Source: Lancefieldella parvula DSM 20469
Lineage (GTDB): Bacteria; Actinomycetota; Coriobacteriia; Coriobacteriales; Atopobiaceae
Assembly (NCBI RefSeq): GCF_000024225.1
Contig: NC_013203.1
Coordinates: 1 to 64,000 of the forward strand
Length of the DNA stretch: 64,000 nt
Direction: 5' to 3'
Shown: in pieces, positions 1 to 30,466 of the stretch
Layout: the number at the start of each line of letters is the position of its first letter
Numbering within the stretch: the first letter of the stretch is position 1
The notes under the pieces: generated by a model
The model's database searches: none
What the model was told of the DNA's origin: nothing
Seen by the model: only the letters and a program-made list of their open reading frames with translations
Translations under genes and position numbers: made by a program

Positions 1-249
1 TTACTTAAAGACCTAGCAATAAACCTTTCACTTTGAAAATTTCACTTGTGATAAATGAAGAAATTTGTTGAAAGGAATATTTCTGTGAGGTGAAATATAT
101 CCGTTAAATGCTACTATCATTCAATACATCTTTCACAAAGATATAAAGTTATCTACAGATGTTTAACACTTGTTGAAAACTTTCATTCATCGTGAAAGAA
201 AAAGAAAAGTTTTCTTCATTCGTTTAACAATTGTTGAAAAGGAGGTGTC
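1..249. other. oriC: oriC, upstream portion (predicted)
   Basis: AT-rich non-coding leader before the first gene. It holds TGTTGAAAG at 66-74 and two copies of a 19-bp direct repeat, GTTTAACAMTTGTTGAAAA, at 161-179 and 222-240 (18/19 identical, 61 bp apart). Read on the other strand these are TTTTCAACA or CTTTCAACA. A near-classical DnaA box, TTATCTACA, lies at 149-157. TTTCAC/GTGAAA occurs five times (26, 40, 90, 131, 192). An A/T-only run near 197-216 could serve for unwinding. No exact TTATCCACA is seen. The origin assignment rests on the neighbouring dnaA-dnaN-recF-gyrBA order and on the box clusters; it is inference until GC-skew or marker-frequency data are used. Confidence 0.65.
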
Positions 250-1116
250 ATGGCAAGAGATTTTTTTCCTTTTGTTGAGGAAAATACCAACCAGGATGAA
301 AAAAACACTGATTCTAACAACTCTCTAACAGTTCGTTATGCTGCACGTATTGCAGTGTATGATGATAAATCCGCAGCACCTCGCGTTGTTCTTGTTGAAC
401 CTAAAGATGTTCGCTCTTATCTTGATGAAATCGCAGCTACAGTTAATCAGCTTGCCCACGAGCAAGGTGGAAAAATTCCTTTTATGGTTATGCGTGAGAT
501 TGTGGAAAATTTCATTCATGCTCGCTTTGTAGCGCCCACAATCTCAATTATGGACAACGGAAATACCATTAGGTTTTCTGACCAAGGTCCTGGTATTAAA
601 GAGAAAAACCGTGCTCTTGAATTTGGTACCTCTTCTGCAACAGAAGAAATGAAATCATTTATTAGAGGTGTTGGTTTTGGTCTTCCATACGCTCAACAAT
701 ACATGGTTGAAAAGGGTGGAAGTCTTACTCTCGAAGACAATATCTCTGGCGGAACGATTGTTACCTTATCAACACGTCGTTCCAAAGATGCTCACATTCA
801 GACACTTCCAACTCAAGAAGATGCTGAAGAAATGACTGTTAGCCAAGAGGAACAATCAATTTCAAGAGCCTTACATACTGTTCCTCAGCAGCCAGTTACA
901 CAGCTTCCTAATTTAGTTCTTACAGATCGAGCAAAACTTGTTCTCCAATATCTCTCTGAACATGAATGGGTTGGAGCAACAGAATTAACAAGTGCTTATG
1001 GTCTCTCAACACCAACGTGGTCAAGAGAGTTAAAGTCACTGGTAAATATAGGAATAATTGGAAAAATTGGTCAAAAATATAAGCTCACAACCATTGGAGA
1101 AACACTCCTTTCATAG
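250..1116 (+). CDS. GHKL-type ATPase with C-terminal winged helix, next to the origin
   Basis: A 288-residue protein with two recognisable parts. Residues about 50-178 look like a GHKL (HATPase_c) nucleotide-binding fold: an N-box at 82-91 (MREIVENFIH, with Glu, Asn and His in place), a G1 motif at 111-116 (DQGPGI) and a G2 loop at 140-145 (GVGFGL). After a polar linker, residues about 223-288 form a winged-helix DNA-binding domain. There is no histidine-phosphorylation domain or membrane segment, so it is not a normal sensor kinase; a SpoIIAB-like or ATP-switched DNA-binding role is possible. The AGGAGGTG ribosome site directly follows the origin repeat at 222-240. It lies immediately before dnaA and may regulate it or the origin; that is inference. 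Confidence 0.8.
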   Translation: MARDFFPFVEENTNQDEKNTDSNNSLTVRYAARIAVYDDKSAAPRVVLVEPKDVRSYLDEIAATVNQLAHEQGGKIPFMVMREIVENFIHARFVAPTISIMDNGNTIRFSDQGPGIKEKNRALEFGTSSATEEMKSFIRGVGFGLPYAQQYMVEKGGSLTLEDNISGGTIVTLSTRRSKDAHIQTLPTQEDAEEMTVSQEEQSISRALHTVPQQPVTQLPNLVLTDRAKLVLQYLSEHEWVGATELTSAYGLSTPTWSRELKSLVNIGIIGKIGQKYKLTTIGETLLS

Positions 1117-1199
1117 AGTTTCTCAACATTATTCGCTAAAAGTTATCAACATTCCTCTATACTAGATGTCCCAATTTTCAACATTTTGATTGGACACGT
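1117..1199. promoter_or_regulatory. Box cluster before dnaA
   Basis: Three boxes of one type, all in the same direction, are packed into the 83-bp gap: TTCTCAACA (1120-1128), TTATCAACA (1143-1151) and TTTTCAACA (1175-1183). They fit a TTNTCAACA consensus that also matches the boxes in 1-249 and 2730-2963. The likely role is DnaA binding, for origin function and dnaA self-control. No clear Shine-Dalgarno is seen before the dnaA ATG. Confidence 0.55.
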
Positions 1200-2729
1200 A
1201 TGGATGCATCAATTGATTCAGACGCAATAGCTCTATGGCAAGATGCAATAGACCTCTTGGTTGAAGAGAATCAACCAGAGGCTTTTATCGCTATGTTGAG
1301 AACATGCACGCCAATTAAAGTTGAAGATGATACTTTGTACGCTGAGACTTCAATGCGCTTGGCATATAACCGTATTCTTAAAAACTTACCTATTGTCGAA
1401 AGATGTCTCTCGGCAGCTGCTTTTGAAGATGTTATTTTGAGTCTTACTCTTACAAAGTCTTCTACTCCTGTTACAACTACTTCCACAATGACTCCTCAAG
1501 AGTTCAATGCCTGGAAGCAAAAAACTACTCCTATACAAGCAGTTGTTCCTGAACAGATTCAAGATTTTGAATCCCAAGAACAGAGCCTTGAAGAATTAAA
1601 ACAACAGACGTTAAAACGCCGTAAGAGTAATCCTCTCTATGAAGAAACATCCTTCAATTCAAATCTTACGTTTGATCGCTTTGTTGTTGGTGATGAGAAT
1701 GAGCTTGCCCATCAACATGCATTAAATGTTGCAAACGACGCAAAAGGTAAAGCAAATCCACTTTTTATTTATGGTGCAAGTGGTCTTGGAAAAACCCACC
1801 TTCTGCGTGCGGTTCAAAACTACATTAATTCTGAAGACATCGAGCGCGTTTGCGTTTATAAGGACGCTGATGCTTTTGTTGATGACTACGTAAATGCTGT
1901 TCGTAAAAATGCATCAGGTAATGCTGCAACTGAACTCAATAATAACTACCAAAATATCGATGTACTTATTATCGACGACGTTCAAAAACTTGCTGGTAAG
2001 GCAGGTACTATTAATTTCTTCTTCAATATTTTTAATTCTTTAATTGATAGAGGTAAACAGATTATCCTTGCAGCTGATAGAACTCCAGCGCAGCTTGGTA
2101 TGGGTTCTGATGGCTTTGATGACCGCATTACTTCACGTATGAGTGGTGGCATTGTTATTGGTATTGAATCTCCAAGTTATGAGATGAAACTCAATCTTAT
2201 TCATGTCTTCTGCGACCGAGCTTTTAAAGAAAGAAATTCTTCTCTTTCTGTAGATGATATGCCAGAAGAAATTAGTCGTTACATGGCTGATAAGGCAGGT
2301 CAAAGTATCAGAACGCTTGAGGGTTTCTGTAATCGTTGTGTCACCGGACAAATCAAAGCAAAAGAATCTGGTAAAAATATTAAACAGGAAGAAATAGATA
2401 AGATTGCAGATACGCTCTGGCGTCGTGTTTCAAAAACCGTAAATATCGAAAAGGTCCAAGAAGTTGTAGAGAATATCTACGGTATTAACCATCGTGATAT
2501 TGTTGGTAATAAAAGAAATAAAGAAATTGCAGAACCACGCCATGTTGCAATTTATCTTGCACATGATCTTTGCCAATATACGCTGGTAAATATTGGTAAG
2601 CATTTTGGTGGAAGGAAACACGCAACAATTTTGCACAGTATTGAGGTAATCGAAGAAAAAATCAAAGAAGATAAAAGCTTCTATGATCAGATTTCTCAAC
2701 TCAAGAAGACTATCCTTGAACAAAGTTAG
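1200..2729 (+). CDS. dnaA: Chromosomal replication initiator DnaA
   Basis: A 509-residue initiator AAA+ ATPase that binds and opens the origin. Domain I is about residues 1-85 and a variable linker runs to about 150. The AAA+ core has Walker A GASGLGKT (192-199) and Walker B VLIIDD (255-260). The C-terminal box-binding domain ends with GGRKHATILHS (470-480). In most bacteria this signature reads GGRDHTTVLHA; here the Asp is Lys473 and the first Thr is Ala475, positions that contact DNA bases in the E. coli structure. This change may explain why neighbouring boxes read TTNTCAACA rather than TTATCCACA. The next gene, dnaN, lies 234 bp downstream. Confidence 0.97.
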   Translation: MDASIDSDAIALWQDAIDLLVEENQPEAFIAMLRTCTPIKVEDDTLYAETSMRLAYNRILKNLPIVERCLSAAAFEDVILSLTLTKSSTPVTTTSTMTPQEFNAWKQKTTPIQAVVPEQIQDFESQEQSLEELKQQTLKRRKSNPLYEETSFNSNLTFDRFVVGDENELAHQHALNVANDAKGKANPLFIYGASGLGKTHLLRAVQNYINSEDIERVCVYKDADAFVDDYVNAVRKNASGNAATELNNNYQNIDVLIIDDVQKLAGKAGTINFFFNIFNSLIDRGKQIILAADRTPAQLGMGSDGFDDRITSRMSGGIVIGIESPSYEMKLNLIHVFCDRAFKERNSSLSVDDMPEEISRYMADKAGQSIRTLEGFCNRCVTGQIKAKESGKNIKQEEIDKIADTLWRRVSKTVNIEKVQEVVENIYGINHRDIVGNKRNKEIAEPRHVAIYLAHDLCQYTLVNIGKHFGGRKHATILHSIEVIEEKIKEDKSFYDQISQLKKTILEQS

Positions 2730-4079: not shown

Positions 4080-5171
4080 GTGGGACTTAAAGTTGAACAT
4101 GTTTCGCTGTATAACTTTCGTTGTTTTGCTTCGAAAGAGATAGATTTATCTGCTCAAACTACTATTTTTGTAGGAAAAAATGCTGCAGGTAAGACAAATA
4201 CTGTTGAAGCATTACAACTTCTTACGGCTGGATATTCTTTTAGAAAACCAACACCTTCACAACTTTTACTGACAGATACCTCTGAAGCAAAGATAGAGAT
4301 TTCTCTTACAGGAGACGGACGAAAGCTAGAAAATACCTGCATCATCACAGAGCGTCGTCGTCAATTTTCAAAAAATGGTAAGAAATGCCAGGCAGCAGAC
4401 ATTTCTGGCACACTGATGTCAATACTTTTTAATCCTGATGACCTTTCAATGATTAAAGGTGGTGCTTCATACCGCCGCGAAGAATTTGATGACTTTGGTC
4501 GCCAAGCAAATAAAAGTTACTTTAAGGTTTTCTCGACATATATCAAAACAGTTGAGCAAAGAAATAAGCTGCTGAAATCTGATTGGCCAGACGAAAATTT
4601 GCTTGATGCATGGGATCTCTCACTTGCAAGGGGAGGAGCCATTCTTCTTCATGCGCGCATTCATTTGTTTGAACGTCTGGCAAAGAAAACTTGTGAAATT
4701 TATCAGGAGCTTTCTGGTGGTGAACACTTGGAAATGAATTATATTTCTTCAATTGGAGAGATATCTCTTGAAGCCTCTAGAGAAGAAATATCTGATCAAT
4801 TCTTACAGGCTTTGAACGAAATTCGTATAGATGATATTCGCCGTCAGCAAAGTACTAAAGGTCCTCATCGAGATGATGTAGAGTTTTTAATTGAGGGTAA
4901 AGAGGCTAGAAATTTTGGTTCTCAAGGTCAAATTAGAACTGTTGTCTTAGCGCTTAAAATGGCAGAAGTTTTACTTTCAGAAGAAATACTTGGTGAGAAA
5001 CCCTTACTACTTCTAGATGATGTTATGAGTGAGCTCGATGAAGATCGCAGAAAAGCTATTATGGAATTTGCGTTTCATGATATCCAAACAGTAATTACAA
5101 CCACCAACCTTGGCTATTTCTCTGAGGAGATTCTAGAGAAAGCGCAAATAGTTAGGTTTAGCGATGAATAA
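4080..5171 (+). CDS. recF: DNA replication and repair protein RecF
   Basis: A 363-residue SMC-like ATPase that loads RecA at gaps together with RecO and RecR. Walker A is GKNAAGKT near residues 33-40, the ABC-type signature is in FGSQGQIRTVVLALKMAE and Walker B is PLLLLDDVMSELDEDR. The start is GTG. It lies 16 bp after dnaN, and its last 8 bases overlap the ATG of the DciA-like gene, so translation is likely coupled. Confidence 0.95.
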   Translation: MGLKVEHVSLYNFRCFASKEIDLSAQTTIFVGKNAAGKTNTVEALQLLTAGYSFRKPTPSQLLLTDTSEAKIEISLTGDGRKLENTCIITERRRQFSKNGKKCQAADISGTLMSILFNPDDLSMIKGGASYRREEFDDFGRQANKSYFKVFSTYIKTVEQRNKLLKSDWPDENLLDAWDLSLARGGAILLHARIHLFERLAKKTCEIYQELSGGEHLEMNYISSIGEISLEASREEISDQFLQALNEIRIDDIRRQQSTKGPHRDDVEFLIEGKEARNFGSQGQIRTVVLALKMAEVLLSEEILGEKPLLLLDDVMSELDEDRRKAIMEFAFHDIQTVITTTNLGYFSEEILEKAQIVRFSDE

Positions 5172-5697
5172 TCAAAATGAAAAACCTGTACGTGGTGGAA
5201 ACGAAACTGCAAAAGATTTAATGAGCTCTTTGCTTGGAACTTTTAAAGATTCTAAGAGTATGTCTAAAAACCGTCGCGCTTATCTTGCATGGGTTGAGGC
5301 AAATGGTGAAAGAGAAGTAAAACACACAACCGGTGTATTTGTCAGAGAAATTGCAGGTAGAGAATATCCTGTACTTACAGTCTATGTAGATAATCGTATG
5401 TGCATGATTGATTTTCTTGCACAAAGAGAAGTCTATAGAGCTAGGCTTTCAGAGCAAGGTCTAGAATTTTCAGACCTTGAATTTAAGCTGGATAAATACA
5501 ATAGACATGCTGGTAAAGGAGCCAGTTCTTCAAAAATACAAAAGCAAGGCAAGAAAATAGAAAAAAAGGCTCTTCCAGAACTTACTACAGAAGAAAAATC
5601 ACAAATTTCTGAGTTGGTTTCTAGTCTTTCTGAGCCACTTAAGTCAACGGCTTATAAAGCGATTGAAGCAAGTTTTAGACAAAAAAAGAGTCTTTAG
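5164..5697 (+). CDS. DUF721/DciA-like helicase-loader family protein
   Basis: A 177-residue protein in the usual position of DUF721 genes in Actinobacteria, between recF and gyrB. The central part (about 35-120) has the family pattern of a Trp-containing helix (AYLAWVEANGE), then strands ending in LTVYVDNRMCMIDFLAQRE; the tail is Lys/Glu-rich. DciA proteins assist loading of the replicative helicase in bacteria without DnaC. A dnaB gene is present at 29.0 kb and no dnaC/dnaI-type gene is seen, which fits. The start overlaps the end of recF by 8 bases. Confidence 0.75.
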   Translation: MNNQNEKPVRGGNETAKDLMSSLLGTFKDSKSMSKNRRAYLAWVEANGEREVKHTTGVFVREIAGREYPVLTVYVDNRMCMIDFLAQREVYRARLSEQGLEFSDLEFKLDKYNRHAGKGASSSKIQKQGKKIEKKALPELTTEEKSQISELVSSLSEPLKSTAYKAIEASFRQKKSL

Positions 5698-28695: not shown

Positions 28696-28856
28696 ATGTG
28701 TAGACGGAACAGTATATTTTTTTCTGTTCTACCTGCGGTTATTCATAATGTTATGTAAAACATATTCACTTAACCTGCGGAATTGTAATTTGATTTGTAT
28801 AATCGCAGATAAGCAATTGTGTAGAAAATACTACGTGTCGAAAAAAGTCAAAAAAA

Positions 28857-28874
28857 TGTTGAAAACGTTGAAAA
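28857..28874. promoter_or_regulatory. Tandem DnaA-box-like sites before dnaB
   Basis: TGTTGAAAA (28857-28865) is followed without a gap by CGTTGAAAA (28866-28874). The first equals TTTTCAACA, the box found around dnaA, and the second differs at one base. A nearby TGTTGAAGA (28919-28927) is a weaker match. This suggests DnaA control of dnaB, but the motif also occurs in coding sequence by chance, for example inside purF. Confidence 0.4.
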
Positions 28875-29026
28875 CTCAAGGAAATCCCGCTCAGGGTATG
28901 CGAGTTTTGGGAAATCGTGTTGAAGACTTATTTTTTAAAATTTTGCAAGTCAAAATGACTCTTTATTTTTTTGAAAAGTACACTACTATTCAGATTCATT
29001 CCCAAAAAACATGATTGGAAAAGACG

Positions 29027-30466
29027 ATGGCACAAGACTCGTTTGAGATGAATCCTACGCAATTGACAGCCCTAGAGAACGCTTCTATGCCACAAGATTC
29101 TGATGCTGAGTTTTCCATTCTTTCTGCAATGATTCTCTCGGAAGAGATCCGAGGAGAATGCCTTATTAGGCTTTCTTCCGAGGATTTCTATATTCCGTCT
29201 AATCAAATTATTTTTGAAGCAATTAAGTCGCTGTTTGATAACAATAAGCCGGTAGATGTAATTTCACTTGCTGATCACCTTAAAAGTAATGGTAAGTTTG
29301 AGCGTGCTGGTGGAGCTGTTCGTTTAGCGGAGCTTGGCAATAACCCACTAGCTATGGTTGGCTGGGAAAACCACGCTGTTATGTTGCATCGTGATACTAC
29401 GCTCAGAAAGATGATTAGCGCTTCTGCAAAGATTTCTGCTTTGGCCTACAATGCCCCGGAGGATACAAAGCAAGTTGTTGATCAGGCAGAAAAGCTCATT
29501 TTTGACGTAACTAACAGAGATGTTCAGCAGTCCGAGCAGAACATCGAAGATATCATGACTAATCTTTTTGATGAGCTTCAGCAAAATGCTGGAAAAGATG
29601 CTGCTGAGCTGGGTGTTCAAACTGGATTTGCAACTCTTGATAATCTTTTCCAAGGCCTTCGTCCTGGTCAGATGGTTGTTATTGGCGCTCGCCCTGGTGT
29701 TGGTAAGACTTCTTTTGCTCTTAGTATGGCTTATAACGCTGCGGTTTCCGGTGCAACTGTTGCGCTCTTCTCGCTAGAGATGAGCAAAATTGAGATTGCA
29801 CAGAGGCTCTTGGCTTCTGAATCAAAAGTAGATTTACAAACCATTCGTTCTTCTAACATCAGAAATGAGCAGTGGCCTACCCTTCTAGAGGCAGCAGAGC
29901 GTATTTCTCGCCTTAAAATCATTGTTGACGATACTCCAGGCACAACAGTCACAGAAATCCGTGCAAAAGCCCGTAGAATGCTTAATAAGGCCGAGAAGGG
30001 CGTCATTATCATTGACTACCTCCAGCTACTTTCTCCACCAGCAGAAAGGGGGCGTGCAGATAGTCGTGCAACTGAGGTTTCTGAGATGTCTCGTGGCATT
30101 AAGATCATGGCAAAAGACCTTAAGGCGCCCGTTATTGCGCTTTCTCAGCTCAACCGTACGCTTGAGAACAGAAACGGCAAGCGCCCACAGCTCTCTGACC
30201 TGCGTGAGTCTGGTGCGATCGAGCAGGATGCAGATATTGTTTTGCTGCTCGACCGTTCGCTCAGTGATGAAGAAGCTGCACGTGACGATCGACCTGATAA
30301 AGATGTTACCAACATCATTGTTGCAAAGAACCGTGCTGGTGCTTTAAGAGATGTTCCTATTATGTTTATGCCAACGTCTACTAAATTTGTTGAGCTTTAT
30401 CAGGGAAACAATTACTCAGAAAGCGAAGCAGCGCAGTATGCTGCAATGACAAATCCTGCACACTAA
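29027..30466 (+). CDS. dnaB: Replicative DNA helicase DnaB
   Basis: A 479-residue hexameric helicase. The N-terminal primase-interacting domain (MPQDSDAEFSILSAM onward) is followed by a RecA-like core with Walker A GARPGVGKTS near residue 220, the Walker B strand VIIIDYLQLL, and the SQLNRTLE and DLRESGAIEQDAD motifs. No intein is present. ATG at 29027 follows GGAAAAG; an in-frame TTG 12 bases earlier is unlikely. Loading probably depends on the DciA-like protein at 5.2 kb. Confidence 0.97.
   Translation: MAQDSFEMNPTQLTALENASMPQDSDAEFSILSAMILSEEIRGECLIRLSSEDFYIPSNQIIFEAIKSLFDNNKPVDVISLADHLKSNGKFERAGGAVRLAELGNNPLAMVGWENHAVMLHRDTTLRKMISASAKISALAYNAPEDTKQVVDQAEKLIFDVTNRDVQQSEQNIEDIMTNLFDELQQNAGKDAAELGVQTGFATLDNLFQGLRPGQMVVIGARPGVGKTSFALSMAYNAAVSGATVALFSLEMSKIEIAQRLLASESKVDLQTIRSSNIRNEQWPTLLEAAERISRLKIIVDDTPGTTVTEIRAKARRMLNKAEKGVIIIDYLQLLSPPAERGRADSRATEVSEMSRGIKIMAKDLKAPVIALSQLNRTLENRNGKRPQLSDLRESGAIEQDADIVLLLDRSLSDEEAARDDRPDKDVTNIIVAKNRAGALRDVPIMFMPTSTKFVELYQGNNYSESEAAQYAAMTNPAH

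Follow-up and report, generated by a model that had tools for sequence, protein, structure and literature searches.

The gene directly preceding dnaA in Lancefieldella parvula DSM 20469 (ORF 250-1116 on the plus strand, with an ATG start and a product of 288 aa) codes for a GHKL ATPase fused to a C-terminal winged helix, and its place before dnaA is kept throughout the Actinomycetota lineages that carry it. We infer with moderate confidence that the protein is an ATP-gated dimeric DNA-binding regulator acting on its own promoter, on the origin, and on dnaA. The stretch of DNA analyzed, hereafter the window, comprises the first 64 kb of a single-contig circular genome of 1,543,805 bp, and the features of the locus are collected in Table 1.

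What is understood of DnaA regulation comes mainly from E. coli, Bacillus, and Caulobacter. For mycobacteria, a lack of known DnaA regulators has been reported (PMC5720831), and no DnaA regulator for the deep actinobacterial classes was found in open-access full texts.

Table 1. Features of the GHKL-winged helix locus, in window coordinates.
Feature	Position	Strand	Evidence or remark
TTTCAC half-sites	26, 40, 90, 131 (26..136); fifth at 192	+, +, -, +; -	around the putative -10
Putative extended -10 of the GHKL gene, TG-C-TACTAT	109..117	+	sequence, k-mer enrichment
Origin, first convergent box pair	149-157 TTATCTACA / 171-179 TTTTCAACA	+ / -	22 bp start to start
Candidate operator dyads TGAAA-AC-TTTCA (174-185) and TTTCA-N7-TGAAA (181-197)	174..197		overlap box 171-179
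Origin, second convergent box pair	210-218 degenerate TTTTCTTCA / 232-240 TTTTCAACA	+ / -	232-240 abuts the Shine-Dalgarno sequence at 241-245
GHKL-winged helix protein, 288 aa	250..1116	+	between rpmH and dnaA; ORF, Pfam, model, orthologs
Conserved N-terminal peptide MARDFFPF	250..273	+	alignments
Bergerat-fold ATPase domain, residues 25-178	322..783	+	Pfam, AlphaFold2 models, conservation
Disordered linker, residues 179-219	784..906	+	pLDDT, lengths and sequences of relatives
MarR-like winged helix-turn-helix, residues 220-288	907..1113	+	model, Pfam, PDB comparison
dnaA-promoter DnaA boxes	1120-1128, 1143-1151, 1175-1183	+	flank TATACT, a -10-like element at 1158-1163
dnaA	1200..2729	+	Pfam Bac_DnaA and Bac_DnaA_C

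Domain Architecture of the Encoded Protein

The ORF is preceded by GGAGG at 241-245, a Shine-Dalgarno sequence. Its product had been predicted from the letters of the sequence to combine a GHKL fold, recognizable by an N-box and the motifs DQGPGI and GVGFGL, with a C-terminal winged helix, and to have neither a kinase nor a sensor domain; Pfam searches, AlphaFold2 models, and comparison of the model with PDB structures bore this out. The N-box reads R82-E83-x-x-E86-N87-x-x-H90, the G1 box D111-x-G113-P-G115 (DQGPGI), and the G2 box G140-x-G142-x-G144 (RGVGFGL). Pfam matched HATPase_c to residues 79-175 (E 7e-10, 39.7 bits versus a cut-off of 26.4), the ATPase domain modelled alone by AlphaFold2 reached a mean pLDDT of 84.5 and a pTM of 0.84, and residues 25-177 of the model matched the PDB structure 3lmm with a Z score of 13.4. 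The best PDB match by sequence was MutL, at an E value of only 0.044. By its fold and its N, G1, and G2 boxes the protein belongs to the GHKL superfamily, and it is predicted to bind or hydrolyze ATP.

The winged helix gave a weak signal in the single sequence (Pfam HVO_A0261_N, 2.8e-6, within residues 225-287); across 40 family members, the same Pfam family was matched in 36, HTH_IclR in 24, and MarR in 11. In the AlphaFold2 model, the winged helix-turn-helix (wHTH) blocks have pLDDT values of 91-98 and the linker values below 50, and residues 220-288 resembled many MarR structures at Z scores of about 11-12 among the matches listed. The modelled C-terminal domain thus has a MarR-like winged-helix fold and may bind DNA sequence-specifically, perhaps at the candidate sites described below. 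The N-terminal peptide takes the form MA-x-x-[FY]-[YF]-P-F-V-E in alignments of the family, and M-K-x-F-Y in deeper lineages; it is possibly a strap or an interaction motif.

No DHp domain with a phospho-acceptor His was found, since HisKA gave no Pfam match and about 25 disordered residues precede the ATPase domain in the model, and neither a sensor domain nor a STAS domain was detected in the chain by Pfam or AlphaFold2. A histidine kinase fragment or a pseudogene could be ruled out, given an intact chain, invariant catalytic residues, and the lack of a DHp domain ahead of the ATPase domain.

The linker of relatives varies widely in length. Olsenella-like genomes and some others of the Coriobacteriia have linkers of 100-190 residues in which Q, P, Y, and G abound and which look prion-like or like the disordered segments of SSB; in deep lineages the linker measures 10-30 residues.

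Conservation of the Gene and of Its Position Before dnaA

Orthologs were found in 341 of 396 Coriobacteriia genomes (354 matches minus 13 weak ones with E values of 1e-8 or worse). In a phylum-wide sample, 157 of 396 genomes gave a match at 1e-10, of which 38 were Coriobacteriia and 119 belonged to other classes. The gene lay directly before dnaA in 76 of the 80 deep lineages that were checked, the remainder being contig breaks or cases in which dnaA was not found: 35 of 36 deep genomes of the class Coriobacteriia showed it there and on the same strand (with one contig break), and of 44 genomes from other classes 41 did so (two contig breaks, dnaA not found in one). The order of a leftward rpmH followed by the GHKL gene and dnaA, both rightward, was present in all 77 Atopobiaceae loci spanning the three genes and wherever the retrieved stretch of a relative also reached rpmH. 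The arrangement rpmH, origin, GHKL-winged helix gene, dnaA is phylum-wide in the Actinomycetota lineages that bear the gene. Lack of conservation next to dnaA and a structural model lacking a GHKL fold had been named beforehand as outcomes that would speak against the original prediction; the position is kept in relatives far beyond Coriobacteriia, and the model obtained has a GHKL fold and a winged helix.

No match was found in 42 of the 396 Coriobacteriia genomes. When 23 genomes without an ortholog were checked, 18 also had no good dnaA match, which points to an assembly gap at the origin, one had dnaA at a contig edge, and four were true absences. These four losses, three in one genus and one elsewhere, have rpmH and dnaA intact with no relative of the gene between them. 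The DNA between rpmH and dnaA appears to be non-coding there. Such loci are natural knock-outs, useful for comparison. Among 20 other Actinomycetota without a match, one of them with a genome of 9.2 Mb, dnaA was found in 19, and the stretch before it held no relative. Since the gene is absent from four Coriobacteriia and from many other Actinomycetota, the phylum as a whole can do without it.

The protein had no match in plasmids or phages. A mobile, phage, or defence gene was ruled out, since PADLOC and PHROG matches concerned generic wHTH or HATPase parts only, and the independent genomes ruled out an assembly artefact.

Constraint on the sequence was pronounced at the predicted functional residues. 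In a phylum-wide alignment, N87, H90, D111, G113, G115, G140, G142, and G144 were conserved in 55 of 55 sequences and E83 in 54, and in the wHTH, L264 was conserved in all 55 and R259 in 51. Among 68 Atopobiaceae, the median pairwise identity was 76% for the ATPase domain, compared with 61% for the AAA+ module of DnaA, 63% for DnaN, 60% for RecF, and 18% for the linker of the GHKL protein. The distance matrices of the GHKL protein and DnaA were correlated (r 0.60, against 0.23 for the highest of 2000 permutations), as expected of joint descent.

Origin, DnaA Boxes, and Candidate Operator

Leftward across the circular record end lie, on the minus strand, genes that read as rpmH, rnpA, yidD, yidC, jag, rsmG, parA, and parB, and rightward follow dnaA (by Pfam) and genes that read as dnaN, recF, a DciA-like gene, gyrB, and gyrA. 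The GC skew flips its sign at the record junction, from -0.068 in the last 5.8 kb to +0.05 in the first 20 kb.

The DnaA box of Atopobiaceae is TTNTCAACA. It occurs 15 times in the 64 kb, compared with 4.3 expected by shuffling, and nine copies start within the first 3 kb, at 171 (-), 232 (-), 766 (+), 1120 (+), 1143 (+), 1175 (+), 1294 (-), 2783 (-), and 2895 (+). Standard TTATCCACA boxes are hardly found here. In the two intergenic stretches of the 77 Atopobiaceae loci, 193 boxes of the TTNTCAACA type were counted, and TTNTCCACA was almost absent. As had been claimed, DnaA boxes flank the gene on both sides, and one of them, at 232-240, is immediately adjacent to the ribosome-binding site. 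The claim that the gene sits inside the origin, before dnaA, held for its place directly before dnaA and needed amending otherwise, as the gene separates two box clusters, one making up the origin proper (1-249) and one belonging to the dnaA promoter (1117-1199).

Convergent boxes in Atopobiaceae are spaced exactly 22 bp start to start in 81 cases, the next commonest distance being found in six, and in origins with two pairs the unit is repeated every 62 bp. No earlier description of this 22 bp/62 bp design was found. At the dnaA promoter of relatives, TATANT is flanked by boxes that are mostly 9-16 bp upstream and 14-18 bp downstream of it.

Relatives show TGCTATGAT or TGCTATTCT where the window has the putative -10 of the GHKL gene. 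A scan with the sigma-70 consensus yielded nothing at the proposed promoters and overall fewer sites than chance, so the GHKL and dnaA promoters were assigned from conservation only. Since this putative -10 lies upstream of the origin boxes, the GHKL transcript would cross the origin.

Candidate operator sequences were searched for upstream of the GHKL gene in 65 non-redundant family origins with DnaA boxes masked, and the elements enriched were a -10-like element and TTTCA dyads. TGAAANNTTTCA occurred in 17 of the 65 origins versus 0.17 expected, and TTTCA-N8-TGAAA in 11 versus 0.23 expected. In the window, the only copy of TGAAANNTTTCA is that at 174-185, and five of the 29 copies of TTTCAC fall within the first 249 bp. 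The TTTCA dyads may be sites for the winged helix or, given their overlap with a box, weak DnaA sites.

Relation to Known Systems

The closest GHKL structure was DIP2311 of Corynebacterium diphtheriae (3lmm), which was top among the matches listed for the ATPase domain alone with a Z score of 12.5 versus 8.7 for the next; histidine kinases, SpoIIAB, and PDK followed at about 8-8.7. We take DIP2311 to have the AlbA_2-HATPase_c_4 architecture of the COG2865 group, annotated as "predicted transcriptional regulator". Proteins of this type end in a winged helix, and to our knowledge none is located near dnaA. HATPase_c_4 (PF13749) had no Pfam match in our protein at E values up to 10 and none in the genome, and AlbA_2 had no match in the protein, the N-terminus of which is short and disordered in the model. 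The second likeness is to CapK, an HTH-STAS-GHKL kinase that responds to ssDNA and acts by phosphorylation on the repressor CapS, which is a STAS-wHTH protein of its own; the two are controllers of immune operons (PMC13373217). In both cases a GHKL domain governs, or in ours would govern, a winged-helix DNA-binding protein encoded beside its controlled operon; unlike CapK, the protein studied here has its GHKL domain and C-terminal wHTH in one chain, contains no STAS domain, and is encoded in a core replication locus. It thus resembles the COG2865/AlbA_2-HATPase_c_4 proteins and CapK and is a member of neither group.

With the MarR family the protein shares the winged-helix fold of residues 220-288, but it has no dimerization helices or ligand pocket around the wHTH, a part that the GHKL domain would fill. 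With MutL, GyrB, and Hsp90 it shares the Bergerat fold and the general base Glu and the Asn of the N-box, but it lacks a transducer and a C-terminal dimerization domain. SpoIIAB/RsbW, anti-sigma kinases that bind a sigma factor and phosphorylate an antagonist with a STAS domain, share the GHKL fold and the N-box residues corresponding to E83 and N87 (Z 8.0 to 1thn). The likeness to Hda, YabA, SirA, Soj, DiaA/HobA, and SeqA would be one of role, namely control of DnaA or of the origin, and we know of no GHKL domain in any of them and of none whose gene lies between origin and dnaA. Searches of open-access full texts yielded no description of the GHKL-winged helix family or of a GHKL protein controlling DnaA, in agreement with the earlier statement that no described replication regulator has this layout. 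The component domains are known, and the family may be an overlooked replication regulator.

Proposed Function and Alternative Explanations

We favor a regulator because the position of the gene is fixed between the origin and dnaA, because its catalytic and wHTH residues are constrained and its ATPase domain is more conserved than DnaA, because it is co-inherited with DnaA (as their correlated distances indicate) and has no plasmid or phage match, because DnaA-box clusters lie on both sides with a second, perhaps non-DnaA element (TGAAANNTTTCA, TTTCAC) upstream, and because the fold unites a switch with a reader in a single chain. The position of the gene, its conservation, and the candidate operator sites make it plausible that nucleotide state is coupled to initiation or to dnaA expression. 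ATP binding would dimerize the GHKL domains and thereby place a pair of winged helices on a dyad operator within the origin/promoter region just upstream of the gene, and hydrolysis, with E83 as general base and N87 as Mg ligand, would release them. Nucleotide-driven dimerization is assumed here by analogy with GyrB, MutL, and Hsp90; histidine kinases have the same fold and do not dimerize like these proteins. Once on the DNA, the protein would repress or adjust transcription of its own gene. In Atopobiaceae this transcription would run through the DnaA boxes of the origin. The bound protein would also alter both the occupancy of these boxes by DnaA and the DnaA output of the next gene. DnaA in turn would restrain the regulator through the box abutting its ribosome-binding site and the boxes that follow closely after its promoter. 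This would close a loop that could serve as a brake or as an accelerator, with the ATP level or a bound signal as its input.

A different activity, which we regard as unlikely, would be that of a protein kinase of the SpoIIAB/RsbW/CapK type, whose GHKL domain would phosphorylate DnaA, DciA, or an unlinked factor, the winged helix serving only as a tether at the origin. SpoIIAB (Z 8.0), PDK, and histidine kinases are indeed structural neighbors, and the spacing of E83 and N87 is also that of SpoIIAB, although the N-box as a whole, with its spacing EN-x-x-[H/D]-A, comes nearer to MutL/GyrB than to SpoIIAB. The chain has no DHp or STAS domain, which argues against a kinase; we have kept the kinase under consideration because SpoIIAB shares the E/N pair and because a wHTH repressor, CapS, is under the control of the GHKL kinase CapK (PMC13373217). 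The near-invariance of the general base E83 and a conserved N-terminal peptide in strap position would also suit an initiation remodelling or clamp factor, in which a MutL/GyrB-like ATP-closed dimer would embrace origin DNA and aid DnaA in unwinding or in helicase recruitment, with control of transcription as a secondary effect, and the long disordered linkers would keep the wHTH bound while the GHKL dimer acts elsewhere. Such a factor is rather improbable in our view, as the transducer domain with its lysine seen in GyrB/MutL is lacking, the MarR-like wHTH is a transcription-factor fold, and lineages without the gene initiate well.

The gene could finally be a conserved bystander: it would encode an ordinary regulator with a role in some other process and be kept before dnaA only because the rpmH-dnaA segment seldom rearranges. 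The entire yidC-rpmH/dnaA-dnaN-recF segment is frozen and the gene has been lost in a few lineages, as this explanation would have it. However, the slot in the gene-less lineages examined holds no relative and looks non-coding, among gene-bearing genomes no displacement from dnaA was found, contig breaks apart, and conservation of the ATPase domain exceeds that of DnaA. We give the bystander only a slight chance.

Returning to an ATP-gated regulator of the origin and dnaA, we tentatively suggest, as a possibility held with less than even confidence, that it represents the first family of an undescribed class of replication regulator: a GHKL-winged helix ATPase located between origin and dnaA, probably ancient in Actinomycetota, that would read nucleotide state or a ligand and license or block DnaA at the origin, with mutual control between the two. 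The gene is a strong and directly testable candidate for a DnaA or origin regulator of the deep actinobacterial classes. If confirmed, it would extend the control of chromosome initiation by a new protein architecture and give a starting point for studying the cell cycle of Coriobacteriia, which are common in the human gut and mouth.

DnaA Recognition and Other Genes of the Window

Most deeper lineages have their DnaA boxes chiefly in the interval from rpmH to the GHKL gene, and the boxes there follow the usual CCACA type. In Atopobiaceae the box has changed from TTNTCCACA to TTNTCAACA, and the recognition helix of DnaA (window positions 2580-2660) from GGRDHTTVMHA to GGR[S/K/T]HAT[V/I][M/L]HS, the outgroup genomes with RDHTT having mostly CCACA boxes. 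This looks like a shift of box and recognition helix by co-evolution.

Directly upstream of ORF 29015-30466, which reads as the replicative helicase gene dnaB, minus-strand boxes of DnaA-like sequence (TTTTCTACA, TTTTCGACA, TTTTCAACA, and TTTTCAACG, at 28820-28874) form a further group, which suggests control of dnaB by DnaA. Between recF and gyrB, in the expected place of dciA, ORF 5164-5697 had no Pfam match at 0.001; it is the fastest-changing gene of the locus, with a median identity of 34%.
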